In this document: positions 1-15,934 of the stretch, in pieces
Position numbering within the stretch: the first letter of the stretch is position 1
How the letters are laid out: every line of letters starts with the position of its first letter
Assembly: GCA_027858995.1 (NCBI GenBank)
Contig: JAQIBP010000044.1
Location: 1-50,636 of the forward strand
Direction: 5' to 3'
DNA: 50,636 nt
Origin: Deltaproteobacteria bacterium
Lineage (GTDB): Bacteria > Desulfobacterota > Desulfobacteria > Desulfobacterales > Desulfobacteraceae
Notes under the pieces: generated by a model
Seen by the model: the letters and a program-made list of their open reading frames with translations, nothing else
Told to the model about the DNA's origin: nothing
The model's database searches: none
Translations under genes and position numbers: made by a program

Positions 1-222
1 ACATGAAGAACATACCATACGATTGCGTGTCTGGGCCCACGCGTCTTGCTTTATACCACAGACTGGGCAAATAAATGTATCTGGCCAACGCAATTTCCGC
101 AAGAATTTTGCACATGCCTTATTGTCCGGGAACATCGACACAAATTCACGGTAAGTATTCGGATAGTCCCGCCCTGCAAGAAGACTGGTTGAAGATAGTC
201 CAATTTCAGTCTGCTGATTCAT
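1..222 (-). CDS. IS1595-family transposase, N-terminal part (runs off the window)
   Basis: The minus strand carries an uninterrupted frame from an ATG at 222-220 to the window edge, about 74 residues. It reads as the start of an IS1595-type transposase: the opening pattern DYPNTYREFVSMFPD, then LRWPDTFICPVCG, then a second Cys pair (CSSC) at the very edge. These form the N-terminal zinc ribbon of that family. An in-frame TAA lies a few codons upstream of the ATG, which fixes the start. The DDE-type catalytic domain should lie outside the window. An open frame on the plus strand over the same bases is its shadow. Whether the full element is intact cannot be judged. Confidence 0.8.
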   Translation of the reverse strand, partial: MNQQTEIGLSSTSLLAGRDYPNTYREFVSMFPDNKACAKFLRKLRWPDTFICPVCGIKQDAWAQTRNRMVCSSC

Positions 223-268
223 ATCGGCATCTTATCAAAGGAGGAGCTAACCGCCTACCCCCTTACTT
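1..268 (-). mobile_element. IS1595-like insertion sequence, one end
   Basis: This is the transposase start plus a short non-coding lead. The outer end is put at about 248-268, where GCTAACCGCCTACCCCCTTA looks like a terminal inverted repeat. That assignment is tentative because the other end is not in the window. The element sits immediately downstream of the racemase-like gene that closes the first methyltransferase operon. Confidence 0.5.
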
Positions 269-304
269 TATATATCATCTTTATGTTAAAATTGCTGACA
301 CATA

Positions 305-1093
305 TTATACATGCCCATAATAATCTCTGTGTGCAACAACGGAATAGGCATAATCCAGAATAGTCCCCCAAGAGAAGACAGGCATATCAACCTGTTGCTG
401 TATCGCCCTGGCAAACGGCTGCATTCCTGTACACTCGAGCATTATAGCATCAATGCTGGAATTTTTTTTGCAAAAGTCCACACAAGCATCAACCATCTGC
501 TGTTCCTGAATTTTATATACTGCTTCAGGTTTTTCCGACCTGACCTCCCAGTTCCAGAGTTTATCAAGTTCAGTGCATCCGTAATCATCACTGGCTCCGG
601 CAATAATATAGTTGCTGTCCAGAGATATCCCCACTTTTTCAAGATGTGTATCCGTTAAAAATTGTTTTTGATAACAGATAATCCCGACATCTTTTTTGGG
701 TCCAATGATCTGCTGAATAAGGGGAACTTGCAAAAGGCTGGACATGAAAACCGGTATATCGACTGCATCAGCAACTTCAGGTTGAAAATAGGCAAAATAT
801 CCGCATTCTGCTGCAATAGCTCTGCAACCCATCTTCTCAAGCTTTTTTGCAGCTTTTAGTATCGGTTTCAGGCAGGGTGATTTGTCTTTGTTCCAGACCA
901 ATTGTTTGATATCAATCCCTTCTACAATCTCGTATTGAATCGGATAAGGAAAGCCGCTGGCATTTCTAACGTCACCCGGAAACCCGGGGTAGACATCATC
1001 CAAAATCATGATACCGATTCCCATGCCGTAGCAGGAGTGCTTTTTTCGTGTAAAAATCTGTTTAATTCTCAAATCTCTATTTTGATATTTCAT
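305..1093 (-). CDS. Asp/Glu/hydantoin racemase-family protein
   Basis: A 262-residue cytoplasmic protein of the aspartate/glutamate racemase superfamily. Family enzymes use two cysteines as the acid-base pair. Candidates are Cys97 in AAECGYFA and Cys221 in MLECTGMQ, each at the usual position in one of two similar halves. The start is supported by AGAGG five bases upstream. It is the last gene of the seven-gene operon, 47 bases after an MttB gene. Next to a hydantoinase-A-like gene, a hydantoin or amino-acid racemase role is possible, but many relatives are lyases or decarboxylases (maleate isomerase or arylmalonate decarboxylase type). The substrate is unknown. Confidence 0.7.
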   Translation of the reverse strand: MKYQNRDLRIKQIFTRKKHSCYGMGIGIMILDDVYPGFPGDVRNASGFPYPIQYEIVEGIDIKQLVWNKDKSPCLKPILKAAKKLEKMGCRAIAAECGYFAYFQPEVADAVDIPVFMSSLLQVPLIQQIIGPKKDVGIICYQKQFLTDTHLEKVGISLDSNYIIAGASDDYGCTELDKLWNWEVRSEKPEAVYKIQEQQMVDACVDFCKKNSSIDAIMLECTGMQPFARAIQQQVDMPVFSWGTILDYAYSVVAHRDYYGHV

Positions 1094-1140
1094 ATTTACC
1101 TCTATTGAGTTTCTCTATTGATTAGAAAATAATATACTCA

Positions 1141-2652
1141 TCATACCCAGTTTGCAGCCATCCTTCCAAGCTCCTTATAGATTTGTTCCGGCAGGGGTTC
1201 AGGCTTATGTTCTATTATTGTTTTCAAAGTTAAATCTTTAAGTCTCTCATTGAATTGTTTTGACCCGCGACTTGTCCATGTTGACAAGGTTGTCCGGTCA
1301 AATAGTTTTGAATACCACACATCTCTGAAATGATCCATGGTATGTTTTTCCATAAGATAGTGCCCTCCGGGTCCTACCTTGTCAATCACATCAAGAGCAA
1401 GATGCTCTTCGTCCATCCATATCCCTCTCATGTACCGGTTGACTCTCTCAATTACCTCATCAATAAGGAGCATATATTCAGGGGAAATAAGATTGGAGTG
1501 ATCAAGCCAGCCGTTGTCATGAACCATGTTGGCACCACTCATGGCGGAAGTTAAACATGAGAATGTTGCCTCCACAGCAGCCTGGGAATCCGGCAGTTTA
1601 GCATCAGAACAGCCTGATGTTCCAAAAAAAGGAATATTATAGTAGTGCGCAAGCTGTGCCATGGCAGATGACATGATATTCATCTCAGGAGCACCATAGG
1701 AAAAAATTGTTGTGTTCATATCCATAATTGTGGCAAATGCACCATAAATGAAGGGTGCTCCGGGATTGACCATCTGAGCAAGAACAATGCCGAACAGTGA
1801 CTCGGCACTGCCCTGGATAACGGTCCCGGCAAAAGTGGCAGGAGAGGTGCTGCCTGCCTGGGGTCCTGAATAACATACCTGTGGCAGTCCTTTATCTGCA
1901 GCAAAAAGAAGCCGGTCAATGAGGTCATCATTATATGTGAGCGGAGAGATAGGGGCTTGAAAACCAATGATATTGGGCGCATTTATTAAACGCTCTTCAT
2001 CACCGGCAATAATAACTCCCATTTCATAAATATCTTTCATGGCTTCAATGCTGTTGCAGCAGAAAAGCAGAGGCTTGCTGCAGTTTGTTAAAGCCTGTTT
2101 GGCAATCAGTCTGTCACTTATTGCTGCAGGAGCATCAGAGCATACCCCGATGGTCATAACCCAGGAAAAATTATCTAAGGCATCGGCGAGGATCGAGGTT
2201 GTTTTACAGTCTTTTAGAGTAAATGGCCGCCGTTGTCCAGTGTCAGGATCAAGGTAGTCAAAAGCATCAAGAGTAGGGCCGTACCAGGTATCCGTATCTT
2301 TGAGTATCACCTGATTTTTCCTGCTGCGGTCAAAAAAACTCACCTGGGAGGGAACAGTGCTCAATGCCTCTTCAACTACATGACCTGGCAGACGTACTCT
2401 GTCATCCTCAATGGAGCAACCGTAACTACTCAGAATCTCTTTTGCCTTTTCATGGGTAACCTTGAGCCCTGTTCTCTCCATAACGCTTAAAGTGGCTTCA
2501 TGCATTGCCTGGACCTGAGCTGTGGTTAAAAAGTTTTGTCTTGGTTTGATGTGCAGCATGGACTCCAAAACAGAGTCCAAAACAGATTGTCCTGCGGTTT
2601 TTTTTGCTGAACCAGCATCTGTTTTACCGGTAAATTGTGCTTCAGATGTCAT
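1141..2652 (-). CDS. MttB-family (non-pyrrolysine) corrinoid-dependent methyltransferase, copy 1
   Basis: A 503-residue member of the trimethylamine methyltransferase (MttB) superfamily, a TIM-barrel enzyme that moves a methyl group from a quaternary or tertiary amine to the Co(I) of a partner corrinoid protein. Family blocks seen are FFGTSGCSDAKLPDSQAA, VHDNGWLDHS and the C-terminal DKVGPGGHYL. The frame has no in-frame amber codon, so it belongs to the MtgB-like branch that lacks pyrrolysine. About 30 extra residues precede the usual N-terminus. AAGGA lies nine bases before the ATG and overlaps the stop region of the paralogue upstream (12-base gap). No corrinoid protein gene accompanies it. 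The substrate could be a betaine, carnitine-like or another N-methyl compound. Confidence 0.85.
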   Translation of the reverse strand: MTSEAQFTGKTDAGSAKKTAGQSVLDSVLESMLHIKPRQNFLTTAQVQAMHEATLSVMERTGLKVTHEKAKEILSSYGCSIEDDRVRLPGHVVEEALSTVPSQVSFFDRSRKNQVILKDTDTWYGPTLDAFDYLDPDTGQRRPFTLKDCKTTSILADALDNFSWVMTIGVCSDAPAAISDRLIAKQALTNCSKPLLFCCNSIEAMKDIYEMGVIIAGDEERLINAPNIIGFQAPISPLTYNDDLIDRLLFAADKGLPQVCYSGPQAGSTSPATFAGTVIQGSAESLFGIVLAQMVNPGAPFIYGAFATIMDMNTTIFSYGAPEMNIMSSAMAQLAHYYNIPFFGTSGCSDAKLPDSQAAVEATFSCLTSAMSGANMVHDNGWLDHSNLISPEYMLLIDEVIERVNRYMRGIWMDEEHLALDVIDKVGPGGHYLMEKHTMDHFRDVWYSKLFDRTTLSTWTSRGSKQFNERLKDLTLKTIIEHKPEPLPEQIYKELGRMAANWV

Positions 2653-2664
2653 TGTCAGATTTCC

Positions 2665-4101
2665 TTATTTCCAGGTGGACTGCATTCTGTCCAGCTCTTT
2701 GATAATCTTTTGTGATAATGGTTCTGGTTTATGTTTCATCTTTTCAAGGGTAAGTTCTTGAAGCCGCTGTTCAAAATTTTTTGCACCGGCTTTTTCCCAA
2801 TTGCTGTAAATTGTTCGATCAAACAATTTTGAATAACGGATTTCACGGAAATGCTTCATTGTGTGGGGATCCTGAATAAAATTACCGGCGGGGCCAACTT
2901 TATGGATCAGGTCAAGGGCAAGGTTTTCATCATTAATGGGAATTCCTTTCATAAAGTGATCTACGGCATCTACAATTTCGTTGACCAGTACCATGTATTC
3001 AGGGCTGGCCAGTGATCCGTGATCCATCCAGCTTCCGCAGTCATGTACTAGGCCTGAGCCTATGGTTGCAGCAGTCAGGCATTGAAACGCTGCTTCTGCA
3101 CCGGCCTGGGCATCACAAAATTTTGAATCTGTAGCACCTGCAGTACCGAAAAACGGAAGTTTATAGTGCTGTGCCATCTGTGCCAGTGCAGCCGTCATCA
3201 TGGACATTTCACATGCACCATATGAAAATACTGTGGTCTTCATGTCCATCACAGTGGTAAAGGCGCCGGCAACAAACGGGGCTCCCGGATTTGCAAACTG
3301 ATGTAACACCAGACCGCTTAAGGTTTCGGCATTGCCCTGCACAATAATACCGGCCAGGGTTACCGGTGCAGTACCTCCAGTTTGAGGAGCAGGCGAGTTA
3401 ATCACAGGAATCTTGTTTTCCGCGCAAAAGAGAATCTTATCAACGGCAGGGGCATAATATGACAGAGGGGAAATAGGCTCAGAGTAGTGGAGCAGGCAGG
3501 GAACCTTTTCAAAATTATCTCTGCCTCCACAAAGCAGAAGTGCCATTTCAAAAATATCTTTGCTGTTGGCTGTGTCTTTGCTGCAAAAAGCAACAGGTTT
3601 TTCACAATATTCCATGGCATAACGTGCAATGACCCGGTCTGCAACATCCGGAGAGACATCGTCTGCCATGCCGATAAACATACTCCAGTGGAGATGTGGC
3701 AGTGCATCGCACAAAGCTGCCGTGACCTTAACATTCTCACTGACAAAACGGCTCCTGACATGGGTTTTGGGATCCATATAATCAACACAGTCCAGGCTTG
3801 GTCCAAAAAAGGTTTTGTCCCGCTCCAGGACAATGGTTCGTTTGCCGGTCCGTGTTCCCAGAACAAGCCTGTGGGGGGCTTTCAAAATTGCATCCTCAAC
3901 CATCCAGGAAGGCATGCGTACCCTGTTGCCATCCACTTTTGCACCGTTATCGGAGAGGATTTCCAAAGCACCTTCATGGGGGATATCCACTCCGGTTCGT
4001 TCAAGTACATCCAGAGTTGCACAATGAATCTGTTCAATCTGCTCTTCATTAATAACCTGGAGCCTGGGTTTAAAATTTAATTCATCTGTTGTCATTCCCA
4101 T
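2665..4101 (-). CDS. MttB-family (non-pyrrolysine) corrinoid-dependent methyltransferase, copy 2
   Basis: A 478-residue MttB-superfamily protein, clearly paralogous to the gene 12 bases downstream. They share the barrel motifs (FFGTAGATDSKFCDAQAGAE here), the DHGSLASPEYM region and the VGPAGNF block. AAGGAG eight bases before the ATG supports the start. The tandem pair could be a duplication with divergent substrates or could form a hetero-oligomer; the sequence does not decide. There is no internal amber codon. It follows the DUF1638-HyuA gene by 65 bases in the same operon. Confidence 0.85.
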   Translation of the reverse strand: MGMTTDELNFKPRLQVINEEQIEQIHCATLDVLERTGVDIPHEGALEILSDNGAKVDGNRVRMPSWMVEDAILKAPHRLVLGTRTGKRTIVLERDKTFFGPSLDCVDYMDPKTHVRSRFVSENVKVTAALCDALPHLHWSMFIGMADDVSPDVADRVIARYAMEYCEKPVAFCSKDTANSKDIFEMALLLCGGRDNFEKVPCLLHYSEPISPLSYYAPAVDKILFCAENKIPVINSPAPQTGGTAPVTLAGIIVQGNAETLSGLVLHQFANPGAPFVAGAFTTVMDMKTTVFSYGACEMSMMTAALAQMAQHYKLPFFGTAGATDSKFCDAQAGAEAAFQCLTAATIGSGLVHDCGSWMDHGSLASPEYMVLVNEIVDAVDHFMKGIPINDENLALDLIHKVGPAGNFIQDPHTMKHFREIRYSKLFDRTIYSNWEKAGAKNFEQRLQELTLEKMKHKPEPLSQKIIKELDRMQSTWK

Positions 4102-4166
4102 ATTTTATTCTCCTTATATAGTGGATTAAAGTTTGAGCCATATGCAATATTTTTTTCTTTTAATAA

Positions 4167-6989
4167 TCAAACCATATCAACCTGTCCTGTTAAGCCGGCA
4201 TATATGGTTCTTCCTATAAATATCGGATCTCCGCTGGCTGTGGTTGGAATTTTGTCTTTTGTTTCAAGCATAACTTTTTGGCAGCTGGTTCCTGAAGTCT
4301 GTGCTTTTTCCCTGACAATTTTGATAAGTTTTTTCCTGGCAAAGGAGTCAGCATCTTCAAAATTTTTAAATTGATGGGTTCCGGCAATACCTTCCACAAT
4401 AAACCCTTCCTGATCACCGGGTATGATCCTTATTTGTTTTTTTACGACCACACTGCTGGTAATGGCACCTATGGCATTGGCCACATCTGCATCTTCAGGC
4501 AGGACAGCTTCAGCCCCCAAAGGTTTTACAGCTCTGGGAAGAAAATATTTAATGGGAGCACCAATACCTATAACAGGCCGTTTAAGGTTTATCAGGACTT
4601 CATAATTGGGATTTTTATGAGTCAGCAAATTTTGAATCAGAACTTTACATACAGGGCAGGTGTCCATTATTTCAAAATTTGGGATTTTAGAATCTAAGGC
4701 TTCAGGATTTATCTCATCATCCAATTGGCGTTTCAATAGTTCAAGGGTTAATTGGTTAACACCCATATCCAGCAGGTGCCGGGTTAATTCAGGCATCTCT
4801 TTTTTTGATAGAAAACAAAACATCTCACAATACTCTCTGGCAATATCTTTGTCCCATTTAACAAACTTTTCTGTGATATGTAAAATGTCAGTCAGTGTCA
4901 GTCCACATCTTATCAGGATAAAATTTTCTTCAAGCCTTTGAGTTGGAAGGCTGATGTCAGAAAAGGCATCGGTTTTACAGACAAGTTCATCAATGGAGTG
5001 GGGTCTTGTTTTCAAAAGGGAGATAATTTTTTCTTCCATGGGAGTCAATTCAAGCTGTTGAACAGAACCTGTGACAGCAAGAATCTGCATCTTTTTGGTG
5101 GAGGTTGCATGATGCTGTAAATTATGGTTTAAAAATGCCAATGCATCTTTGACATCATGATACATCTGTCCCAGCCATGCAATGGGTGCCACTCTTTTGG
5201 GGCCGATAAGAAATTTGCCTTTATCAAATTGGATCAGACTGTCCCCACCAAGACCTGCTGTGCGAATTTCAAGAGCTTTAACATGGGTTCTATATCCTCC
5301 TATATTTGATCCTTTTTCATTTAAACTTACCGAATCTGCAGTTAGAGCAGCCGTATCAGTTGTTGTGCCTCCCATGTCCACGACCAGAGCATCTTTAATT
5401 CCGGTCAGGTGTCTTGCTCCTGCCACACTGGCAGCCGGCCCTGAAAGAATTGTTTCAACAGGCCGCTGTTTTGCCATGGCCGCACTCATTAAAGAGCCAT
5501 CACCCTTTACTACAACTATTGGTGCACAAATACCTTGATCTGCCATGACTTTTTCAAGATCCAGCAGTAAACCTGTCAGACGCGGAATAATCCTTGCATT
5601 CAGCATGGCAGTTGTTGCCCGGGTTTGAAAATTTAAGGCATCAGACAATTCATGGCCGCAGGTAACAAAGCAGCCTGTCTGTTTATGGATAATCTCTTTA
5701 ACCTGGATTTCATGTTCAGGGTTAATGGAGCCTGCATAACCGGAGACTGCAAATGCTGTTACCCCATGAACCTTCACCATTTGTGAAGCAATTTGGCTTA
5801 CCTCTTCAGGATCAATGGCAAGGATTTGTCTGCCCGTGATTTCAAGCTGCCCTCTAATAACAGATTTTGGCTGGTGTTGTATATTTTTATCAATTCCAAG
5901 ACCATAGGGCGGCATGAGAATCAGTCCAACTTTCTGACCTTCATTCTCTACAATGGCATTGGTTGCAAGAGTAGTGGATAAAGAAACAAGTTCTACATTA
6001 TACAGCTTTTCCTGATCCAGTTTTTTTAAAGCAGAATTGATCCCCAGGGTGAAATCCCATTTTGTGGTCAACGATTTAGCCTTGCAAAGAGTTTGCTTTT
6101 TTTCAAGGTCATAAATCACAGCATCGGTATATGTGCCGCCTGCATCAATCCCCAAACCGATTTTTATGTAAGAACCACTGTCTGTTTGTTGATCTTCCAT
6201 CTCAGTCACAGTGGAGGTTTCATTACTGTTGGTTTTAATATCCAGAATGGGATTGGCAGAGAGGGTGGATTGTATGGCATCAAATCCAATAACATGTTCT
6301 GGAGGTACAAAAAGGATTTCAGATGTTGAATGGTCGGTTGTGATCATTTTTTCGATCAAACTCTGGCTTCCTTTTATTTTATCGTACTTCCATTTGTATT
6401 CTGCGGCCATCTCCCTGGCAAATTTTTCATATTTCAGAGATTTTTTTGCACCTGTTTCAATAAAAGCTGCCCTTTGATAATTTTTCTGCCAGGAATTTAA
6501 GAAATCAAAGGTTTGCCGGGCAGCATTTTGACCGTATTTTTCAACAAGGTCACTGAATTCTAATTTTTTTTCACCAAAATATGCCCACTGTTTTCTCTGG
6601 GACATGGGCTCGGTTTTCTCTTCGCACCATCCTGCTGAAAGATAATATGTGCCAGGATATTTTTTAAATTCACTCTTATATGCCTGATCTCCTCCCAGGA
6701 ACATGGAAATACAGTCATGCACTTTAGGGATAGTCAGAGGGATGGAACGGGCTTGTATGCCAATGGTTCCTTTGCCGCAGACACCGTATCCAATGATAAT
6801 ACGACGGCCTGAACCCGAGGCTGAAATCTCATCAATGGCAGCCTGAAGTTTTTCTTGGAGCAGTTTTGGATTGTTATGCAACCCTGCTTCCAGAAATTTA
6901 TATTCAATATCAAGCCCCAGCTTTTTGGCACTATGCTTCATATCAATGGCCAGGACAGCACAGGCAATTATATACAACTTTTTTTTCAT
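4167..6989 (-). CDS. DUF1638 - hydantoinase A/oxoprolinase (actin-fold ATPase) fusion
   Basis: A 940-residue two-part protein. Residues 1 to about 260 match DUF1638: IIGYGVCGKGTIGIQAR, then IPKVHDCISMFLGG and GTYYLSAGW, with conserved Cys and His. From about residue 276 a HyuA/oxoprolinase-type ATPase begins: phosphate-1 motif GLGIDAGGTYTDA, phosphate-2 motif DMGGTTTDTAAL near 536, and a late CPVC pair near 777. No HyuB partner is present. The ATG overlaps the stop of the upstream oxidase gene (ATGA), so translation is coupled. HyuA proteins hydrolyse hydantoins or oxoproline at the cost of ATP. DUF1638 genes tend to lie near MttB/corrinoid genes (recalled, not checked). The fusion may act on an N-methyl hydantoin-like substrate or may service the corrinoid system; neither is shown. 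Confidence 0.8.
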   Translation of the reverse strand: MKKKLYIIACAVLAIDMKHSAKKLGLDIEYKFLEAGLHNNPKLLQEKLQAAIDEISASGSGRRIIIGYGVCGKGTIGIQARSIPLTIPKVHDCISMFLGGDQAYKSEFKKYPGTYYLSAGWCEEKTEPMSQRKQWAYFGEKKLEFSDLVEKYGQNAARQTFDFLNSWQKNYQRAAFIETGAKKSLKYEKFAREMAAEYKWKYDKIKGSQSLIEKMITTDHSTSEILFVPPEHVIGFDAIQSTLSANPILDIKTNSNETSTVTEMEDQQTDSGSYIKIGLGIDAGGTYTDAVIYDLEKKQTLCKAKSLTTKWDFTLGINSALKKLDQEKLYNVELVSLSTTLATNAIVENEGQKVGLILMPPYGLGIDKNIQHQPKSVIRGQLEITGRQILAIDPEEVSQIASQMVKVHGVTAFAVSGYAGSINPEHEIQVKEIIHKQTGCFVTCGHELSDALNFQTRATTAMLNARIIPRLTGLLLDLEKVMADQGICAPIVVVKGDGSLMSAAMAKQRPVETILSGPAASVAGARHLTGIKDALVVDMGGTTTDTAALTADSVSLNEKGSNIGGYRTHVKALEIRTAGLGGDSLIQFDKGKFLIGPKRVAPIAWLGQMYHDVKDALAFLNHNLQHHATSTKKMQILAVTGSVQQLELTPMEEKIISLLKTRPHSIDELVCKTDAFSDISLPTQRLEENFILIRCGLTLTDILHITEKFVKWDKDIAREYCEMFCFLSKKEMPELTRHLLDMGVNQLTLELLKRQLDDEINPEALDSKIPNFEIMDTCPVCKVLIQNLLTHKNPNYEVLINLKRPVIGIGAPIKYFLPRAVKPLGAEAVLPEDADVANAIGAITSSVVVKKQIRIIPGDQEGFIVEGIAGTHQFKNFEDADSFARKKLIKIVREKAQTSGTSCQKVMLETKDKIPTTASGDPIFIGRTIYAGLTGQVDMV

Positions 6990-8191
6990 TTCAAAAAGGT
7001 GTCTCCCTTTTCAAAAGATCCCTCTTTAAAACGGCTGTAGCGTAAGGGATTATCCTTGTTGTCCATTTTTCCAGTGACAATATCTGCTACTCTTTTACCT
7101 GCTGCCGGTGCCATCATGACACCGCACCAGTAACCGCAATTCAGATGAAACCCCTCTACTTCATCACTGGGACCAATGATTGGTTTATCATCCGGGGTAT
7201 ATACGTAAAAACCAGCTGACACATCAATATCCTCTGCTTTTAAATTATCGGCAATGGTTTCAAAAAACGGACTAAGGCGGGACGCTCTATATATGGATTC
7301 TGCTGCAAAATCCCAATCAGTTGCAATTTCATCTGTGGGGGCACTTTCCGGTTCATCCGGATCTACCCATGCGCACAACAGACCGCCTGCTTCAGGACGC
7401 CAATAGCTGTGATTGACAAGATCTACCGTAAATGGTGCCTCTGCTGGGAGACTTTTATGTGATGTTCTGATATAGGCCTTTTGGCGCTTAACAGTTTTTA
7501 CGGGTATGTCCAGTCCAGCCATTTTTCCAATAATACCGGCATATGGACCGGCACAATTTACCACCAGCCTTGTCTGGATGGTCCCTTTATCTGTATCAAC
7601 ACCACAGATTCCCCTGCCATCTGTTTGCAGTGCTGTCACTTCGGTCCGGGTAAAGAATGTTGCATTTTTTGATCCTTTTGCAAATCCATAAGTTGTTTCA
7701 TGTGTGGATATCCAGCCGTCTCTGTTATTAAAGGTTGCAGCAAGGGTATCAGGTGAAAGAAAGGGGAAACGTTTATGAAGTTCTGTATCTTTGATAAACT
7801 CTGATCCGGGGATACCTATCTCAGCATATCTTTTTACTGCCTTTTTAAGATCCGGTACCATATCAGGGTCATCTGTAACAAAAAGGTAACCTTTCTGAGT
7901 AAGTCCGATATCGATATTGGGGAGCTTTACCACATCCTTGAAACTTTCAAACATCTCCACACTTGGAAGAACAAGGTCAGCCATAGCTTGTTCCGTGAAC
8001 TGGGTTCTGAAACATTCAACACTTGCAGCAGTTGTTAAAGTTGAAAGTCCATCTCTTTTTTCAATGACTATGGTTTTTAAGCCTGCCTTTGACAACCAGA
8101 ATGCAGTGGATGCACCCACTATACCGCCTCCTATGACTACTGCATCGGCTGTAATATTATTAAAATTTTTTGGATCAAATATTTCACTCAT
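6986..8191 (-). CDS. FAD-dependent amine oxidoreductase (DAO family)
   Basis: A 401-residue flavoprotein of the D-amino-acid/sarcosine/dimethylglycine oxidase superfamily. The N-terminal dinucleotide fold shows GGGIVGASTAFWLSKAG followed by the acidic end of the second strand (VIEKRDG). The C-terminal FAD-binding block HLNCGYWCGVMMAPAAGK is intact. There is no folate-binding GcvT domain, so oxidation of an N-methyl amine would release free formaldehyde. It lies 22 bases after the AOR gene and overlaps the next gene by four bases. In an anaerobe the electron acceptor is probably not oxygen. Placement beside AOR and polyferredoxin fits aldehyde handling. Confidence 0.85.
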   Translation of the reverse strand: MSEIFDPKNFNNITADAVVIGGGIVGASTAFWLSKAGLKTIVIEKRDGLSTLTTAASVECFRTQFTEQAMADLVLPSVEMFESFKDVVKLPNIDIGLTQKGYLFVTDDPDMVPDLKKAVKRYAEIGIPGSEFIKDTELHKRFPFLSPDTLAATFNNRDGWISTHETTYGFAKGSKNATFFTRTEVTALQTDGRGICGVDTDKGTIQTRLVVNCAGPYAGIIGKMAGLDIPVKTVKRQKAYIRTSHKSLPAEAPFTVDLVNHSYWRPEAGGLLCAWVDPDEPESAPTDEIATDWDFAAESIYRASRLSPFFETIADNLKAEDIDVSAGFYVYTPDDKPIIGPSDEVEGFHLNCGYWCGVMMAPAAGKRVADIVTGKMDNKDNPLRYSRFKEGSFEKGDTFLK

Positions 8192-8213
8192 TTTATTTTC
8201 CTTATATTCTCAT

Positions 8214-10091
8214 TCAAACACTTAAACCAATAGCATCAAGGGTACCTTGTGTTGGAATACCATTTTGATCCCATCCTCTTTGTGCATAATAGGCATCTAA
8301 AAGTTCATCAAGTTCTTCCTTTTGTATGTAATATCCTCTGTTTGGTCCGCTTGGTGTGGTCTCCTCATAAAATCGTGCAGGCGGATAATCAAATTTGCGT
8401 CCAAAACCTTTTATCTCCCTTGCCCAGATAACTCTTGTCAGGTTCCATACTTTTTCAGATATTTTGATAATATCATCCCAGATTATTTTTCTCCCGGTTA
8501 TAACACCATAGAGTTCAGCATAATTTTCAACTTCAAATCCTAACTCCATCATCTGAAGGCGGCAGCATCCTAAAAGGTCAAAGGCAGGTCTGAGATGTTG
8601 CGACTCAATGACATAACCTGCTGAATCCTCATAGTGTATAACGGCTTTCGGTCTTCTATCACTCTTAGCACCGGCCACTATAAGATCATGGACATTAGTA
8701 TCGGCACCCACCACATCATGTCCTAAAACCCAGGCACGGTTGTGGTGTGCTCCGACATCTGCAGTCATATATGCAAGCATCATGGAGGGTGCATTGCGGC
8801 ATTCATAACCTGTCCACTCAAGACCTTTGACATGAATGGCAAATTTTTCAGATCCTTTTTTAATTTTTTCAGAAGCAATTTTAACACCCTGGGAAAGCAG
8901 ATCACCCAAAGCATTTTTTCTCAGGCTCATTAGATCTAAAAGATAAACAATGGAGTCAAAATCACCAAATTTTATCTCTTTTCCAATCTCTTCTTTTGTA
9001 ATCAGCCCTTTTTCATAACACTCAATGGCAAAGGCAGCTACAGAAGCTCCTGATATGGTGTCAATGCCAAGTTCATCACACAGATAATTTGCATAGGCGA
9101 TCTCCTCAATGCTTTCAAGCATGCAGCTGCCGCCAAAAAGTGAGATGGTTTCAAATTCAGGACCTTCCATATAGGCAGTGCCAAGGGTTGTCTTGGTTTT
9201 TCCATATTTTCCACAGGGCGTGGGGCAGCAATAACAAGCCTTGTCTGTAATTTTCAGGCGTTCCAATACTTTTTTACCATTAATCATATGGCTGTGGTCA
9301 ATATGGGATGTCTGAAAATTTTTAGCTGGAAAGGATCCAACTTCATTGACCCAGTCTGTGATACCAGCGGTCCCTTCAGGAGTCCAGCCTTTAAATCCCG
9401 GTTTTTCAGCTACTTTTTTAAAGGCCTGCTTTCCTTTGGCATAGGCTTTTTTTAGATCAAATACCGGAATGCTGCCAGTGCCTTTTACAGCAATTGCTTT
9501 GATATTTTTAGATCCGAGAACTGCACCAATTCCAGTTCGCCCTGCCTGCCGTCCGAAATCGTGGGAAATACAGGCAAATTTTACAAGTTTTTCTCCGGCA
9601 GGCCCGATGGTCAGTATCTGAAAATCTTCACCCAGATCTTTTTTCATCATCTCTTCACAGGTAAGTGAACCTTTTCCCCAATAGGTTTTTGCATCTCTAA
9701 TTTCTATGATATCATTCTTGATATATAAATAACTTGGAGTTTTTGCCTTTCCGGTTATAACAGCCATATCAAATCCTGCATATTTTAATGCGGGTCCAAA
9801 ATGTCCTCCCATGTTTGAGTCAGCATATCCGCCTGTGGCAGGGGATTTTGATCCAAAATGGGTTTTACCGCTGGCTGGAAGAAAATGACCTGACAAGGGC
9901 CCTGTAGCAATAATAAAAAGGTTGTCTTTACCCAGAGGATCACTGTCAGGAGGAAGCTCTTTATAAAGAGTTTTTGCCACAAAACCTCTGCCTCCGATAA
10001 ACTCTTCACACATTTTTTTAGATAATGGTTCCTTGATTATCTTATCTGTATCAAGATTTATCCTTAAAACTTTCCCTGCATATCCATCCAT
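8214..10091 (-). CDS. Aldehyde:ferredoxin oxidoreductase (tungsten-pterin enzyme)
   Basis: A 625-residue AOR-family protein. The classic N-terminus MDGYAGKVLRINLD, the GRGFVAKTLYKELPP block, GPAGEKLVKFA and the iron-sulfur motif CYCCPTPC near residue 285, with a later Cys in LLGCCRLQM, are all present. Family members oxidise aldehydes to acids with ferredoxin as acceptor. The chosen start is the ATG at 10091-10089. It overlaps the ferredoxin stop as TAATG and has AAGGAG eight bases upstream. A GTG three codons earlier is the alternative. Formaldehyde or a larger aldehyde made by the DAO enzyme is the likely substrate (inference). Confidence 0.92.
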   Translation of the reverse strand: MDGYAGKVLRINLDTDKIIKEPLSKKMCEEFIGGRGFVAKTLYKELPPDSDPLGKDNLFIIATGPLSGHFLPASGKTHFGSKSPATGGYADSNMGGHFGPALKYAGFDMAVITGKAKTPSYLYIKNDIIEIRDAKTYWGKGSLTCEEMMKKDLGEDFQILTIGPAGEKLVKFACISHDFGRQAGRTGIGAVLGSKNIKAIAVKGTGSIPVFDLKKAYAKGKQAFKKVAEKPGFKGWTPEGTAGITDWVNEVGSFPAKNFQTSHIDHSHMINGKKVLERLKITDKACYCCPTPCGKYGKTKTTLGTAYMEGPEFETISLFGGSCMLESIEEIAYANYLCDELGIDTISGASVAAFAIECYEKGLITKEEIGKEIKFGDFDSIVYLLDLMSLRKNALGDLLSQGVKIASEKIKKGSEKFAIHVKGLEWTGYECRNAPSMMLAYMTADVGAHHNRAWVLGHDVVGADTNVHDLIVAGAKSDRRPKAVIHYEDSAGYVIESQHLRPAFDLLGCCRLQMMELGFEVENYAELYGVITGRKIIWDDIIKISEKVWNLTRVIWAREIKGFGRKFDYPPARFYEETTPSGPNRGYYIQKEELDELLDAYYAQRGWDQNGIPTQGTLDAIGLSV

Positions 10092-10498
10092 TATCTGCAC
10101 TCCTTTTCGTTTTCTTCCTTATATATCACAATAGCTTCCCTGGGGCAGACTGAAGCACACTCGCCACATAAAATGCATTTTGCCGGGATATCATCTTCAT
10201 TTTTAATAATCATGACGCCATGGGGACATGCCTCTACACATGCAAGACACCCAATGCATTCATCATCATTTATTTGATAGATTCCGTCCTGAAGTTCAAT
10301 AGCCTCTGTCGGGCATACTTCAGCGCACTCGCCGCATTGATCACAAAAATGAATATGATAATTTCCTGGTTCAGGAAACAATCCTTCGATTCTCAACACT
10401 GCTTTGGAAGGTGTTACCTCTTCAAAATTTCTTATACTGCAGGCAAGCTTACATACGCCGCAGCCTGAACATTTTTCATGGTTAAATTTTAGATTCAT
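10091..10498 (-). CDS. Polyferredoxin with four [4Fe-4S] motifs, AOR partner
   Basis: A 135-residue ferredoxin-like protein carrying four Cys clusters: CSGCGVCKLAC, CDQCGECAEVCP, CIGCLACVEACP and CILCGECASVCP. This arrangement resembles HycB/HydN-type electron-transfer subunits often encoded beside AOR genes. It is the first gene of the operon and ends in a one-base overlap (TAATG) with the AOR gene, which suggests a stoichiometric pair. AAGGAG lies eight bases before the ATG. Confidence 0.9.
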   Translation of the reverse strand: MNLKFNHEKCSGCGVCKLACSIRNFEEVTPSKAVLRIEGLFPEPGNYHIHFCDQCGECAEVCPTEAIELQDGIYQINDDECIGCLACVEACPHGVMIIKNEDDIPAKCILCGECASVCPREAIVIYKEENEKECR

Positions 10499-10596
10499 GG
10501 ATAGACTCCTTATAATTTTTTAAGGTTGTTTGCGGACACTACTATCCATATATGGTTCCTGATATTTTTTCAAGCATCTCTTGGTATTTGGCACAA

Positions 10597-10894: not shown

Positions 10895-11101
10895 TCGACA
10901 GGCTGTTACATAATGCAAATTTTTGTGAGCATAGCTCTTCTTGAACCAAGTTCAAGGCGGGAAATAAATTTAACCACAGGCATACATGCAGTATGTGAGC
11001 ATAAAGCTCCTCTTCGAGCCCGAGGATTACCCACTTTTATAAGATTGGTATTTTTCCAACGCCGAAATTGGGAAAATTGGGGTTGTGTAACAGCCTGTCG
11101 A
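10895..11101. repeat. MITE-like interspersed repeat, copy A
   Basis: A roughly 207-base element bounded by perfect 16-base terminal inverted repeats, TCGACAGGCTGTTACA (10895-10910) and TGTAACAGCCTGTCGA (11086-11101). Inside are CAAGGCGGGAAA, a small inverted core CATAC...GTATG and TTTTTCCAACGCCG. All three blocks recur in copy B at 33712-33877. It encodes nothing and lies directly against the MFS gene. Confidence 0.65.
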
Positions 11102-11112
11102 GCAGAGATATT

Positions 11113-12345
11113 ATGAATTATCAGGACAATGCTTCCTGCCGGATCGAACCCAACCCTTACTACCGCTATATTATCGTGAGCATAGCATTCATAGTAATGG
11201 TGATTGCCTGGGGAGTCAACTATAGTTTTGGTGTTTTTTTTACTCCGCTTTTAGATGAATTTGGATGGACCAGGGCAATGACATCCGGGGCTTTTTCTCT
11301 TGCAATGTTTTCTGAAGGTTTCGGCGGAGTGTTTATGGGCCGAATTTGTGACAGGTTCGGGCCTCGGTTGGTTGTATCTGTCTGCGGAATACTGCTGGGT
11401 ATGGGATATATGTTGATGTCGCAGGTTTCTACTGTCTGGCATCTTTATCTTTTTTACGGCGTGGTGATCGGTATGGGACTGAGCGGTACTTATGTTCCGG
11501 TTATTTCCACAGTGTCAAAGTTGTTCAAAAGGCGAAGGGGGCTTATGACCGGTATTGTTTCAAGCGGTATGGGGGCAGGCACCCTGTTTGTGACACCCTT
11601 TGCCACCTGGTTGATTCTGATTAAAGGATGGCGCTTTTCCTATATGACCATTGGCCTGGCTACATTGATTATTATCATTGTATCAGCCAGGTTTCTGCGG
11701 AGGCCAGAGGGCAAACACTTTGTACCTGCCATACAATCCAAAACTACCCAACTGACCAGTGAGAGCTCCATAGAGAATGCTAATACTGCCTTGAAAACGT
11801 TTTCTCTCTGGTTGATCTGTATTGTGTTTATATGCTGGGGAATGGTCATCTTTGCAATCCTTGTCCACATTGCCCCGTATGCTATTGAGGCTGGGTTTTC
11901 AAAAATCGAAGCTGCCAATATTCTAACAATATTTGGAGGCAGTGCATTCTTTGCTAAGATCATTACCGGTATTGCAACAGACCGCCTGGGCAGTAAGCCT
12001 GTCTTTGCCATGGGTATAGGAATGCTGACAATTGCCCTTATTATGCTCCTGATAATAAAGGAACTTTGGGTTCTTTATCTGTTTGCTGTTGTTCATGCTT
12101 TCAGCTATGGCAGCGGCTCTGTCACCATACCCAACATTGTTTCTGAGATGTTTGGTCTTCAATTCCACGGGAGTTTAACGGGTATTGTCAATTTTTCTGC
12201 CTGTATCGGATGTGCCATAGGGCCGTTGGCAGCGGGCTGGCTTTTTGACATCACCGGCAATTATTATGCATCTTTTATGAGTGCTGCTTTGCTTGGTGGG
12301 ATCACCTTGATAATGGTTCTGTTTATTAAAACCAAGAAGAATTAA
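11113..12345 (+). CDS. MFS transporter, oxalate/formate antiporter (OFA)-like
   Basis: A 410-residue, 12-helix major facilitator carrier. The N-terminus (WGVNYSFGVFFTPLLDEFGW) and the loop motif GRICDRFGPR between helices 2 and 3 are typical of the OFA/monocarboxylate group. The ATG at 11113 is chosen because an earlier in-frame ATG at 11068 lies inside the MITE-like repeat. No strong Shine-Dalgarno sequence is visible. It diverges from the MttB/AOR operon and could import that pathway's substrate or export a carboxylate product. The cargo is not predictable. Confidence 0.85.
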   Translation: MNYQDNASCRIEPNPYYRYIIVSIAFIVMVIAWGVNYSFGVFFTPLLDEFGWTRAMTSGAFSLAMFSEGFGGVFMGRICDRFGPRLVVSVCGILLGMGYMLMSQVSTVWHLYLFYGVVIGMGLSGTYVPVISTVSKLFKRRRGLMTGIVSSGMGAGTLFVTPFATWLILIKGWRFSYMTIGLATLIIIIVSARFLRRPEGKHFVPAIQSKTTQLTSESSIENANTALKTFSLWLICIVFICWGMVIFAILVHIAPYAIEAGFSKIEAANILTIFGGSAFFAKIITGIATDRLGSKPVFAMGIGMLTIALIMLLIIKELWVLYLFAVVHAFSYGSGSVTIPNIVSEMFGLQFHGSLTGIVNFSACIGCAIGPLAAGWLFDITGNYYASFMSAALLGGITLIMVLFIKTKKN

Positions 12346-12406: not shown

Positions 12407-13609
12407 TTAAGAGGTATGCTTCATTATCTTATAATCAACCTGGTCCTCCACAGATATGCTTTTTGCAATCTCTTTTTTTCTTAAGACATAAGCAACTATA
12501 GTATAAGCAGCGCCAATGCATGTAAAATATGCATAAAATCCATATGGGTTATCTAAAAATTCAATTACTGTTGATGAAATCAGAGGTCCAATTACTGCCC
12601 CGATACCAAAAAAAAGCAGAAGTGCTGAACTTACATTGACAACATCCTTAGGTTCAAACATATCATGGGCCCTTGCCACTGCTGTTGGATAGATAGTAAA
12701 CATAAACCCGCCAAATATTGCAGTTACAGTCAAAAAGGCTGTAAAAGAAATATGGGGAGCTGCCAGCAGTATAAAACAGCTGATTAGAGCAAAGATACCA
12801 CCTAATAAAGGCATTACAACAGATCTGTCAAAACGGTCGGAAAAGGCTCCAACCGGCCACTGGAGCAAAAGGCCTCCCAATACAGTAATAGTCATGAAAT
12901 TAGATACCTGGTACACACTTAAATTTATTTTATGGCAAAAGATCGGTCCCATGGTGTAAAATGAGCTGTTGACTAAACCTGCTGTAAAACATCCAAGTAT
13001 TCCCAAAGGCGCCTTTTGAAAAATCTGTTTTAATCTGATTGTTTCAACTTCAGGCAGATCCGGATGAATTGAACGGGTCAGGGAAACCGGGATAACACAT
13101 AACATCAGTAAAAACCCTATTACGAAAAAAAGAGTTTGATCTTTTACATCTCCAAAGTTGAGAAATTGTTGCCCGATACCGTTTCCAAGATAACATAAGA
13201 TCATGTATATTGAAAAAATCCGCCCCCTTGTGTCTGATTGAGAGCACTCATTGAACCAGCTCTCGATAACCATGAAAAGACCAATGACAGCAATACCGGA
13301 AAAAAATCTGAAAACAGCCCATGCAGCAGGAGACATATAAAGACCATGCAGCATGACCATTGATGTTATAATAGCTGCAAAGGCACAAAATGATCTGATA
13401 TGCCCTACACTTTTTATTAAGCTCTTGCAGTAGAGGCTTCCCACAATAACACCAATGAAATATGATGTTACAATAAGTCCGGCCACTTGCGTTGAAACTC
13501 CTTCCATGGTTAATTTCAAACTGACAAATGTTGTCAGCAGCCCTAAACTCATCATCAGGAATAAAGCGGCTGTATAAAGTGCAATAAATGGTTTTAATAT
13601 TGATGCCAT
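12407..13609 (-). CDS. MFS transporter, YcaD-like
   Basis: A 400-residue, 12-helix major facilitator carrier (FIALYTAALFLMMSLGLL at the N-terminus, RFFSGIAVIGLFMVIESWFN mid-protein) resembling the YcaD subgroup. The start is put at the ATG at 13609, with GGAG eight bases upstream. A longer frame reaches 13657 but has no such signal. It is the last gene of the second MttB/AOR operon, 73 bases after the TIM-barrel gene, and is the probable uptake system for that operon's substrate. It ends convergently with the OFA carrier, about 60 bases apart. Confidence 0.85.
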   Translation of the reverse strand: MASILKPFIALYTAALFLMMSLGLLTTFVSLKLTMEGVSTQVAGLIVTSYFIGVIVGSLYCKSLIKSVGHIRSFCAFAAIITSMVMLHGLYMSPAAWAVFRFFSGIAVIGLFMVIESWFNECSQSDTRGRIFSIYMILCYLGNGIGQQFLNFGDVKDQTLFFVIGFLLMLCVIPVSLTRSIHPDLPEVETIRLKQIFQKAPLGILGCFTAGLVNSSFYTMGPIFCHKINLSVYQVSNFMTITVLGGLLLQWPVGAFSDRFDRSVVMPLLGGIFALISCFILLAAPHISFTAFLTVTAIFGGFMFTIYPTAVARAHDMFEPKDVVNVSSALLLFFGIGAVIGPLISSTVIEFLDNPYGFYAYFTCIGAAYTIVAYVLRKKEIAKSISVEDQVDYKIMKHTS

Positions 13610-13682
13610 AACCAATTCTCCAATAGATAATACCGATAGATATCCCCTCTTTGTCATTTTACTGCAGCTGTGTTTTATATTT

Positions 13683-14606
13683 TTAGGGTTTGCTCCTGCC
13701 TATATTCAGTACATTCCGGCAGTAATCTATACATTTTTTAACGGTTTCAAGCTCAAGTCGCAGGGCAGTCTCCTTGTCTTCAAGACTTATTCCCATATCT
13801 GTTTCAATATTGATCCTGTTGGTGGGAGAGTTTGTTTTTATGAGTTCATAGGCCTTTTCCATATCAATATCACCATCACCTGTTGCCACACCTGTGACTT
13901 GAAAACCATCCTTGCGGAATTCAATACGATTATCTCGAAAGTGGTTTGTAAATGCAACAGGAGAGAGATTTTCAATTGCCTTCATTGGATTTTCACCCAT
14001 ATGCCAGGCATTTACCGTATCAACACAGGCACCTACAAAAGGGTGATCCACTTCTTTTAATATCCATAAAATCTCCTTTGAAAAAGAGTCACAATGATTT
14101 TCAAGTGCAAAGCAGATACCATACTCTTTTGCCATTGAAGAAGCTGATTTTAATCGTATTATAGTTTCTTCAAAATAGGGCATGACCCTTGGATCAAACA
14201 CTCTCCCCGTTCTTGGTCGGGGTCGTGCTATATCCATTCCAACTTTGATCACTTTTGCTCCAAGATCCAAAGCTGTGTTAAGTCCCTCTTTTAAATCATG
14301 CTGGATGCCTGTATCAATGTTTCCAAGGTCCATGGACATATTATATTCAAGATATAGATTTTTCTCTTTTGCTGCTGCTCCAACCTCTTTTACAAAAGAA
14401 GGTTCAAGATTTTCCAGTACACCGTCATCAATATGAAATCCGTCCAGTCCCATTTCAACACCAAGATCAAAAAGCTCAAAAGTGCTGATCTGTCTTTTCC
14501 AGGGAAGTTTAAAGCCAGCCCATGTCTGACCGATTCCATGCAGGTACAGGCTGTAAGTATGCAGACCGAGCAGCATATCTCTATCTTCTGTTATATAGTG
14601 ATTCAT
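13683..14606 (-). CDS. Sugar phosphate isomerase/epimerase-like TIM-barrel protein
   Basis: A 307-residue AP-endonuclease-2/xylose-isomerase-like TIM barrel. Metal-ligand positions typical of the family appear in CFALENHCDSF, VGACVDTVNAW, TNHFRDNR and NIETDMG. AAGGA lies upstream of the ATG. It sits 20 bases after the DAO gene in the MttB operon. Members isomerise or epimerise sugars, but others act on inositols, hydroxypyruvate or betaine-like compounds. Here the role is probably on the carbon skeleton left after demethylation (inference). Confidence 0.8.
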   Translation of the reverse strand: MNHYITEDRDMLLGLHTYSLYLHGIGQTWAGFKLPWKRQISTFELFDLGVEMGLDGFHIDDGVLENLEPSFVKEVGAAAKEKNLYLEYNMSMDLGNIDTGIQHDLKEGLNTALDLGAKVIKVGMDIARPRPRTGRVFDPRVMPYFEETIIRLKSASSMAKEYGICFALENHCDSFSKEILWILKEVDHPFVGACVDTVNAWHMGENPMKAIENLSPVAFTNHFRDNRIEFRKDGFQVTGVATGDGDIDMEKAYELIKTNSPTNRINIETDMGISLEDKETALRLELETVKKCIDYCRNVLNIGRSKP

Positions 14607-14626: not shown

Positions 14627-15934
14627 TTATCCAATAACTGAAAAACTTGAATCCTGGTTGATTTCACGGTTTCTGCTGAAAAACCCAATATCCAGTGTGT
14701 GATTAATATATTTCATTTTGTATTGCATGGGGTTTTTGTCATGGTTGTTGCCGTTTTCGCAGTATTGAATGAGCTCAGACATAAAAGAGCCGACCGCAGG
14801 CGCATTTTTATACTGATTGCCGCTGGTGCCGATGGCAAGATAAAATCCCGGCAGGCTGGATTTATCATAAATGGGATACCAGTCATCAGATACATCATAC
14901 AAATCCACAATTCCCCGGGGCTTGTTTGGGATGGGAAGATTTGGAATTCGCATGGCTTCCCTCATGGCCTGGGTTCTGATCTGGTCTGTAAAATCGGTAT
15001 TGTAATTGTCCGGGTCAACATAGTCCAATGGATCACAATCAGGCTCTTCACTGCCAATGAGAAAATGGTTGCCGGTTTCAGGCCGGGTATAGACACCAAG
15101 ATCACTGTCCGAAGTTATAATACCTGAATTTTCCCAATCCACACCCTCAGGGCTTGGCACATGGGCAACTTCCACTCTCAGAGCACGGGTTTTAATGTTC
15201 ATCTGATCAGTAATACCAGCCATTCCATTAATAAGATAAGAGTGGGGACCTGCAACATTAATTACCACTGGAGCATCAATTTGTGTGCCATCTTTTAAAG
15301 ATACCCCACAAACCCGTCCCTCTTTTTTCAGGATGTCAGTGACTTCAGTGTTGAACATAAAATCCCCTCCCACATTGCGGGTCGCCATCTCCACATTATG
15401 GGTGGACAGCTTGGGATCGCTCACATATCCACACTCCGGAACAAAAACACCTCCATTAATTTTACTGCCTGTGGGTTTGCCAAATTCAGGATCATCCATC
15501 AGTTTTTGGGGATAATAGGAACGTAAATCAGCATCAGGGAGGTATCTTTCCATCTCTTTCGGAGGTAGATCCAGATATCCCACTCCAAGTTTATCCAAAG
15601 ATGACATAACATTTACAAGATTATTGTTAACCCTGGATTTAAAAACAAGAGCCCCTGTATTTTTATAATAAGCCATGCCGTCAGGATCTGAAACATTTAA
15701 ATACCTTGGCCAGTTGAGCCAGTAGTAATATCCTTCTCTTGCAAGGGCAACTCCCTCAGCCGATGAGTAATAAAGCCTTATAACAGCACAGCTTCCAGAA
15801 GTTGAACCAAAGCCTGAGCCGCCGAGTTTATCTATATTCAGTGTTTTATATCCTTTAAGTGCCAGTTCATATGCAATGCTGTTGCCTATAATACCTGCAC
15901 CAATAATAATTGTATCATACTTTTTTTGCATCAT
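14627..15934 (-). CDS. FAD-dependent amine oxidoreductase (DAO family)
   Basis: A 435-residue DAO-superfamily flavoprotein. The FAD-binding fold is at the N-terminus (IIGAGIIGNSIAYELALKG) and the second FAD block near the C-terminus (YLAIGTSGNQYKNAPAVG). It resembles sarcosine/dimethylglycine dehydrogenases without a folate domain. It differs clearly from the DAO protein of the first operon (435 against 401 residues, different C-terminal block), so it is probably not a recent duplicate. It is 14 bases from the MttB gene. The two starts (MM) are adjacent. Confidence 0.83.
   Translation of the reverse strand: MMQKKYDTIIIGAGIIGNSIAYELALKGYKTLNIDKLGGSGFGSTSGSCAVIRLYYSSAEGVALAREGYYYWLNWPRYLNVSDPDGMAYYKNTGALVFKSRVNNNLVNVMSSLDKLGVGYLDLPPKEMERYLPDADLRSYYPQKLMDDPEFGKPTGSKINGGVFVPECGYVSDPKLSTHNVEMATRNVGGDFMFNTEVTDILKKEGRVCGVSLKDGTQIDAPVVINVAGPHSYLINGMAGITDQMNIKTRALRVEVAHVPSPEGVDWENSGIITSDSDLGVYTRPETGNHFLIGSEEPDCDPLDYVDPDNYNTDFTDQIRTQAMREAMRIPNLPIPNKPRGIVDLYDVSDDWYPIYDKSSLPGFYLAIGTSGNQYKNAPAVGSFMSELIQYCENGNNHDKNPMQYKMKYINHTLDIGFFSRNREINQDSSFSVIG

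Follow-up and report, generated by a model that had tools for sequence, protein, structure and literature searches.

The window analysed here, a 50,636-nucleotide stretch of contig JAQIBP010000044.1 from a Desulfobacteraceae genome, carries a seven-gene operon in which two methyltransferases of the MttB superfamily are joined to a flavin-dependent amine oxidase (DAO), an enzyme of the tungsten AOR family, a polyferredoxin and a fusion of DUF1638 with a HyuA-type ATPase. We lean, with slightly better than even confidence, towards reading it as an operon for the catabolism of a betaine-like quaternary amine, where corrinoid-dependent demethylation would be joined to an oxidative branch. That a mixed corrinoid and oxidative betaine pathway exists here as a genomic unit is well supported, and the pairing of MttB, DAO and AOR looks real because close relatives keep these genes together.

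Organization of the operon

Open reading frame (ORF) and family scans of the window placed the seven tightly packed genes on the minus strand, from 10498 to 305. The first gene (10091..10498) encodes a polyferredoxin with four [4Fe-4S] motifs, which family, PDB and motif matches liken to the small subunit of AOR complexes. It is followed by AOR1 (8214..10091), a tungsten AOR family protein whose closest solved structure is P. furiosus formaldehyde ferredoxin oxidoreductase (FOR), and by DAO1 (6986..8191), an FAD amine dehydrogenase or oxidase of the dimethylglycine dehydrogenase (DMGDH), sarcosine oxidase or glycine oxidase kind without a folate domain. The fusion protein (4167..6989) joins DUF1638 (residues ~1-245) to a HyuA-type ASKHA ATPase (~279-600) and ends in a C-terminal third without a family. 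Behind it lie two non-pyrrolysine MttB superfamily methyltransferases, MttB2 (2665..4101) and MttB1 (1141..2652), and an Asp/Glu/hydantoin racemase-like protein of the PRK07475 subfamily (305..1093).

The polyferredoxin and AOR1 genes meet in TAATG, a stop joined to the ATG at 10091 (sequence AAGGAGTGCAGATAATGG); AAGGAG lies upstream of this ATG, which is a better start than the GTG at 10100 that opens the longest ORF. The stop of DAO1 and the start of the fusion gene overlap in ATGA, the remaining gaps within the operon span 12-65 bases, and AAGGA-type sites precede most of the starts. A sequence-only reading of this DNA had proposed the tightly packed operon, quoting both overlaps, with two non-pyrrolysine MttB homologues, a four-cluster ferredoxin, a tungsten AOR and an amine oxidase, and in all of this it proved accurate: ORF coordinates and family matches bear out the operon, both overlaps are exact, the MttB frames are closed with Cys (MttB1) or Ala (MttB2) at the pyrrolysine position, four CxxCxxCxxxC motifs were counted, and AFOR_N, AFOR_C and DAO domains were matched.

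A scan of the window for sigma-54 promoters gave 6 matches against 6.4 expected, and positions 1-12500 held 32 promoter-like sites (29.9 expected) and 16 terminator-like sites (12.4 expected). Scans for tRNAs and for Rfam families at gathering thresholds returned no matches in the window. The operon (305-10498) has a G+C content of 42.4%, a second cluster described below 40.3%, and the rest of the window (20854-50636) 37.4%. Between the downstream end of the operon and the edge of the contig, the minus strand of 1-304 encodes a fragment with an IS1595-type transposase zinc ribbon (PF12760), preceded by stops.

Close relatives keep the genes together

We surveyed gene neighbourhoods in 86 genomes of the family, with an AOR1 match threshold of E<=1e-150; duplicate rows (L255, equal to L262, and L256-L261, equal to L263-L268) were left out of the counts. 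AOR1 was matched in 31 of the 86 genomes, and eight relatives carry it at 81% identity or above. In six of these eight (G037, G038, G039, G041, G054 and G084) the order ferredoxin-AOR1-DAO1-DUF1638-HyuA recurs, the ferredoxin of G039 being cut by the contig end; the other two are cut by contig ends as well, G031 after DAO1 and G032 within AOR1. The suggestion of the sequence-only reading that the gene order would be found in other genomes was thus borne out, and the genes do not co-occur only rarely. A common arrangement is a divergent PAS/sigma-54 activator followed by MttB-TIM-(MR_MLE)-MttB2-ferredoxin-AOR1-DAO1-DUF1638-HyuA. G041 has a single run, likewise behind a divergent sigma-54 activator, of MttB-TIM-MttC-pterin methyltransferase-ferredoxin-AOR1-DAO1-DUF1638-HyuA, where MttC (65%) and the pterin methyltransferase (47%) occupy the place otherwise held by MttB2; the same run, MttC and pterin methyltransferase included, is seen in G032 up to AOR1 at the contig end. 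The window departs from this order: it has no sigma-54 gene and no upstream MttB or TIM-barrel gene, and its MttB2 lies downstream.

DAO1 gave matches in 33 of the 86 genomes. Of 26 DAO1 loci, the window included, 24 have an MttB gene at most 6 kb away (same strand in 22), and 18 have DUF1638-HyuA on the same strand at most 2 kb away, with an ORF in between at L121. MttB2 was matched in 25 of the 86 genomes, often apart from AOR1 and DAO1. The chance of finding an MttB gene within 6 kb of a random gene is about 2-3% by arithmetic estimate (seven MttB genes in 3.98 Mb), and perhaps 10% in MttB-richer genomes. The count at DAO1 loci and that at the loci of a second AOR (24 of 29, below) are far above this expectation, with the proviso that related genomes are non-independent and that the comparison is arithmetic rather than a permutation.

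Homologues of the racemase-like protein (78-86%) adjoin MttB2 orthologues at five other loci (L142, L143, L146, L147 and L149, divergently in L149). Several of these loci have a sigma-54 activator nearby, and AOR1 and DAO1 are not in the stretch read. In many relatives, as at 13107-20000 of L118, the MttB-DAO1 operon has a sigma-54 activator with a branched-chain-amino-acid type ABC transporter behind it. An MFS transporter gene (11068..12345, plus strand) is divergent from the ferredoxin gene in the window, and its homologues (33-46%) come after DUF1638-HyuA in genus g8. For the MR_MLE neighbour, considered as a hydroxyproline-betaine epimerase, the best 60 of 165 matches in a PDB search were broad superfamily matches only.

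A second cluster pairs another AOR with MttB and DAO

Outside the operon that the sequence-only reading described, the minus strand carries another set of MttB, DAO and AOR genes (20033-12407). It is headed by a GntR/FCD regulator (19359..20033) and continues with AOR2, a divergent AOR family protein (17515..19362), the adjoining non-pyrrolysine MttB3 (15949..17418), DAO2 of the FAD amine oxidase family (14627..15934), a TIM-barrel (AP_endonuc_2) isomerase-like protein (13683..14606) and an MFS transporter (12407..13657). AOR2 has AFOR_N and AFOR_C domains and is 31% identical to AOR1. The TIM-barrel gene recurs in both kinds of cluster among relatives.

AOR2 was matched in 29 of the 86 family genomes (30 matches with the window), and in 24 of these 29 loci an MttB gene adjoins it on the same strand, 30-277 bases away. 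The others comprise two loci that end at a contig edge (L202 and L247), two at 42% identity without MttB, and L245 (G066), which has only a piece of MttB3 at a contig start, apart from AOR2. A scripted 6-kb count found the AOR2-MttB association in 24 of 26 loci at 59% identity or above, the window included, and in 4 of 7 below. A DAO2 orthologue is present at 13 of the 29 loci; the g8 loci have no DAO2, and a peptide-type ABC transporter often follows there. Outside the family, 4 of 395 phylum genomes drawn match AOR2 at E<=1e-110 besides the window. In three of them (G190, G272 and G247; 43-48%, two other families) MttB adjoins the AOR2 homologue; the fourth (G243, 38%) is closer to AOR1 and has no MttB adjacent.

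Sarcosine-oxidase-like (Sox), DAO2-paralogue and EtfBA genes lie upstream on the same strand at 6 of the 29 AOR2 loci. Five (L196, L198, L199, L200 and L201) show SoxA-SoxG-DAO-EtfB-EtfA-AOR2-MttB3 on one strand, the DAO being a DAO2 paralogue, with SoxB among the genes read in L196, L198 and L201; in L197 this set, SoxB apart, is interrupted by a sigma-54 gene and two others. In G037, AOR2-MttB3-DAO2 come after MttB-MttC-pterin methyltransferase-SIS.

Beyond the second cluster, the window encodes a protein with glutamate-dehydrogenase-like domains and two CBS domains (22162-24063), preceded by a 425-residue protein (20854-22131) without a Pfam or NCBIfam match.

A proposed mixed corrinoid and oxidative pathway

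PF06253 covers the full length of the three window MttBs with 317, 305 and 313 bits (cut-off 25). MttB3, like MttB2, has Ala at the pyrrolysine position, and the closed frames and Cys or Ala at this site rule out a pyrrolysine MttB. The trimethylamine methyltransferase equivalog TIGR02369 was rejected as well, the window MttBs scoring 393-398 bits, below its curated cut-off of 525. MttB1 and MttB2 are 46% identical; among solved structures, 2qne and 9yce, a glycine betaine methyltransferase, come nearest to MttB2. The window MttBs are candidates for the transfer of methyl groups from quaternary amines to a corrinoid protein.

The genome has 10 MttB matches, which we read as 7 genes, and a single corrinoid-protein match (PF02607), an MttC on contig C118 that adjoins an MttB and a pterin methyltransferase. 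It also encodes FTHFS, and on one strand of contig C9 it carries SoxB, SoxA, SoxG, a DAO2 paralogue, ETF, DMGDH and ETF, then MttB. The MttB next to the C118 MttC (L055, ~6284-7689) lies in three pieces in different open frames and is frameshifted or misassembled. A 1505-residue protein with a SIS (GlmS-like) domain follows MttB-MttC-pterin methyltransferase in two genomes (L055, 151-4668; L195, from 3994). Relatives of DUF1638-HyuA at 11 named loci have 74-82% best-segment identity, six in Desulfobacula and the others in Desulfobacteraceae, Deltaproteobacteria or proteobacteria metagenome-assembled genomes, from which we infer that the host, a marine bacterium, is a Desulfobacula-type sulfate reducer.

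The best PDB match of AOR1, which has AFOR_N and AFOR_C domains, is P. furiosus FOR (445 bits, against 389 and 378 for AORs). Residues T244, E317, Y432 and H453 of AOR1 are kept in 25/25 AOR1-like sequences and correspond to the Thr, Glu, Tyr and His of the tungsten second shell, as set out in passages of PMC12096430. Its ferredoxin neighbour has 17 Cys and the polyferredoxin MvhB (9sw6) as best PDB match, with the AOR-complex small subunits 8c0z_C and 9mqx_E and WOR5 6x1o_B among the matches scoring below it. The nearest solved relatives of DAO1, which has a DAO domain, include 1y56_B, dimethylglycine dehydrogenase and glycine oxidase; 1y56_B is listed as sarcosine oxidase in the PDB search, and we take it to be P. 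horikoshii L-proline dehydrogenase. Sarcosine oxidase and dimethylglycine dehydrogenase remove N-methyl groups. A Pfam scan gave no match to the folate-binding GCV_T domain in DAO1 or DAO2; DAO1 would therefore be expected to release a free aldehyde.

From the genes observed, their packing, conservation and residue patterns, the following reactions can be predicted. MttB1 and MttB2 would pass a methyl group to a corrinoid protein, probably the C118 MttC, a gene for MttC lying inside the operon in G041 and G032. The pterin methyltransferase would hand the methyl to tetrahydrofolate, and from there it may flow through the reverse Wood-Ljungdahl branch, for which genes are seen. DAO1 would oxidise the leftover tertiary or secondary amine, releasing a free aldehyde that AOR1 and the polyferredoxin could oxidise to the acid, giving low-potential electrons. 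The DUF1638-HyuA protein might use ATP to hold the corrinoid cobalt in the Co(I) state, possibly drawing electrons from the polyferredoxin. Either formaldehyde or a short aldehyde with a carboxyl group would suit the FOR-like pocket of AOR1; our tentative first guess is formaldehyde, with a C4-C5 semialdehyde as its main rival. Such a mixed route was part of the sequence-only reading. Its core is strengthened by the close relatives, the second cluster, the G041 and G032 runs with corrinoid protein and pterin methyltransferase beside ferredoxin-AOR, and the Sox, DMGDH and ETF genes adjoining related clusters.

The DUF1638-HyuA fusion

The fusion protein has 940 residues, the last third without a family match. 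Its HyuA-type domain matches PF05378 and PF01968 (the latter over positions 1-145 of 291), and two motifs that we take to be the ASKHA phosphate motifs are invariant in an 11-row alignment of the fusion. Three Cys, one His and one Trp of DUF1638 are invariant in 21/21 rows (20 distinct genes). AlphaFold, given the 11-row alignment, returned a mean predicted local distance difference test score of 36. A Pfam scan found no RACo_C domain (PF14574) in the fusion, and RamA/RACo membership was rejected. HyuB (PF02538) was absent from the 30 window ORFs scanned with Pfam, the whole operon included and the rest of the window and the genome lying outside the search; with no HyuB among the scanned ORFs, N-methylhydantoin or creatinine hydrolysis was dropped as first choice.

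DUF1638 is carried by 62 of 247 phylum genomes drawn. Among the matches listed, four lie in open frames of at least 850 residues, and HyuA was recognised in three of these (the window, G162 and G246). For neighbourhoods we picked 20 loci from the match list, mostly top-scoring, and scored 19; within 6 kb, a corrinoid protein occurs in 13, a RACo-type gene in 8 and MttB in none. In G162 the fusion precedes a corrinoid protein gene. It adjoins DMGDH-ETF genes at three named loci (L009, L011 and L015), of which L009 and L015 also have MttB, MttC and pterin methyltransferase close by. Within the family, DUF1638-HyuA was matched in 39 of 86 genomes, and at 55% identity or above 17 of 26 loci have MttB within 6 kb.

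Passages of PMC5764234 report that a DUF1638 gene of Phaeobacter inhibens has a fitness pattern like that of a RamA-like protein and a split methionine synthase, and propose no specific function for it; those of PMC12478193 predict that a DUF1638-type protein enables cobalamin recharging. For the betaine cluster of Ca. Formimonas warabiya DCMF, PMC9768040 reports a HyuA-type protein whose abundance is higher on betaine; a 668-residue "unknown" entry in a table there probably represents it and is similar in size to the HyuA part of the fusion. The DUF1638 neighbourhoods, the DMGDH, MttB and MttC contexts and the abundance of the DCMF protein support a role in corrinoid service. Corrinoid activation would suit the fusion better than hydantoin chemistry, and the fusion is probably not a hydantoinase. 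The HyuA-like ATPase of the sequence-only reading is corrected to DUF1638 fused to an ASKHA domain, and no HyuB turned up next to it among the scanned ORFs. A bolder proposal, which we consider unlikely, is that DUF1638-HyuA represents a second, RamA/RACo-independent class of ATP-driven corrinoid activator, with a metal-binding DUF1638 and an ASKHA motor, and that the operon primes itself, aldehyde oxidation by AOR1 loading the polyferredoxin for the return to Co(I). If this were true, the oxidative branch would both consume the demethylated amine and power its demethylation.

Evidence against the pathway and alternative explanations

Several observations weigh against the proposed pathway. 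Linkage of AOR1 to MttB is largely confined to close relatives: among 23 distinct loci of AOR1 homologues at 55-80% identity, 6 have MttB within 6 kb (of the 17 without it, nine are no more than 2 kb from a contig end), and at 40-55% identity none of 6 loci has it. On these counts, AOR1 does not indicate linkage to MttB outside the close relatives. Since linkage is mostly lost below 80% identity, the ferredoxin-AOR pair is a general module, one that joined the MttB operon in this lineage. In genus g8, seven genomes (L115-L120 and L122) run MttB-DAO1-DUF1638-HyuA without AOR, and G033 has MttB2-DAO1-DUF1638-HyuA without ferredoxin and AOR. In AOR2 the catalytic His is replaced by Tyr in 20 and by Phe in 1 of 21 sequences, which makes its reaction doubtful, and it may not be a plain aldehyde oxidase; at the Thr position 16 have Gly and 5 Ser, and Glu is kept in 21/21 and Tyr in 20/21. 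DUF1638-HyuA homologues at 40-55% identity have MttB within 6 kb in 0 of 5 loci, and the genome has four RACo_C matches, so that DUF1638-HyuA need not be the activator. Finally, passages of PMC12096430 indicate that glutaric semialdehyde is possibly preferred by P. furiosus FOR.

This last point bears on a variant of the mixed route, to our mind rather unlikely, in which DAO1 would cleave the carbon side chain from the demethylated amine derived from gamma-butyrobetaine, 5-aminovalerate betaine or a chiral betaine, and AOR1 would oxidise the resulting short carboxylated aldehyde, such as succinic or glutaric semialdehyde, with dimethylamine or methylamine as the other product. Besides the FOR Thr, AOR1 keeps in 25/25 sequences two Arg that we take to be the glutarate-binding Arg of FOR. 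FOR binds glutarate and shows its lowest Michaelis constant with glutaric dialdehyde, as given in passages of PMC12096430. The racemase-like and MR_MLE genes nearby would also suggest a chiral substrate. Set against this, the nearest structures to DAO1 are sarcosine oxidase, dimethylglycine dehydrogenase and glycine oxidase, the first two of which N-demethylate, the residue numbers of the pocket are presumed ones, and the residue that we take to be FOR Tyr307 is Phe in AOR1.

The loose tie of AOR1 and ferredoxin to MttB at lower identity, together with the g8 operons that stand without the pair, would also fit a role outside the carbon route, in which AOR1 and ferredoxin clear stray aldehyde or set a low-potential ferredoxin pool for corrinoid reactivation. 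We find this quite improbable, as all eight closest relatives have the pair within the MttB operon or else at the edge of a contig, and AOR2 is separately tied to MttB. The window operon might also be two unrelated modules, ferredoxin-AOR-DAO-HyuA and MttB2-MttB1-racemase, loosely merged and serving no shared pathway. This might account for the unusual window order and for the racemase-like gene standing beside MttB2 alone at five other loci, but is very improbable given some MttB within 6 kb at 24 of 26 DAO1 loci and window genes that overlap or lie at most 65 bases apart.

Relation to known systems

Betaines are abundant marine osmolytes that feed sulfate reduction and methane formation. Little is known of how sulfate reducers handle the carbon once the first methyl group is gone; dimethylglycine is a reported product of Desulfobacterium strains in passages of PMC6716910. 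A conserved MttB-DAO-AOR unit would supply named genes for a fuller oxidative route and make the fate of the remaining methyl groups testable, and the DUF1638-ASKHA fusion gives a way to approach a gene that in 2018 still awaited a defined part in B12 reactivation, as passages of PMC5764234 have it.

Among the titles and abstract openings listed in a literature search, most subscription papers lying outside it, none describes the MttB-DAO-AOR combination. The sequence-only reading had called the whole combination undescribed, which agrees with this search for MttB-DAO-AOR and is too strong for the HyuA part because passages of PMC9768040 report HyuA-type proteins in betaine clusters. AOR and MttB occur in the same archaeal genomes, with AOR suggested to act on formaldehyde, and no such operon appears in the passages of the two papers concerned (PMC11291895 and PMC8065059).

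The operons share non-pyrrolysine MttBs with the known MttB-superfamily systems (MtgB for glycine betaine; MtpB, MtcB and MtyB), and in two relatives MttC and pterin methyltransferase as well. Compared with MtgB-type systems they add DAO and AOR with polyferredoxin, and the window copy is without its own MttC. The DCMF glycine betaine cluster likewise has several MttBs, corrinoid proteins, a pterin methyltransferase and a HyuA-type protein and is more abundant on betaine; passages of PMC9768040 describe reductive sarcosine cleavage (Grd) there, whereas flavin oxidation followed by AOR is proposed here, with HyuA fused to DUF1638. P. furiosus FOR and the three-subunit Aromatoleum AOR resemble AOR1 in that FOR is its best match, in the second-shell residues and in the polyferredoxin partner gene; the methyltransferase-operon setting differs, and no AorC-type FAD subunit was recognised in the operon. 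DMGDH and heterotetrameric sarcosine oxidase share the DAO fold, and their genes neighbour related clusters, but DAO1 and DAO2 are without GCV_T. The fusion has an ASKHA-type ATPase in common with the RamA/RACo activators and differs in having no DUF4445/RACo domain and an ATPase of the HyuA branch. The Phaeobacter DUF1638 is tied genetically to B12 reactivation in passages of PMC5764234; DUF1638 here often has a corrinoid protein nearby (13 of 19 loci) and in the window protein is fused to an ATPase. Already known are the chemistry of MttB, the presence of HyuA-type genes in betaine clusters, the partnership of AOR with polyferredoxin, and DMGDH and Sox; what appears to be unreported is that MttB, DAO and AOR are stably joined, in two separate clusters, and that DUF1638 is fused to an ASKHA ATPase.

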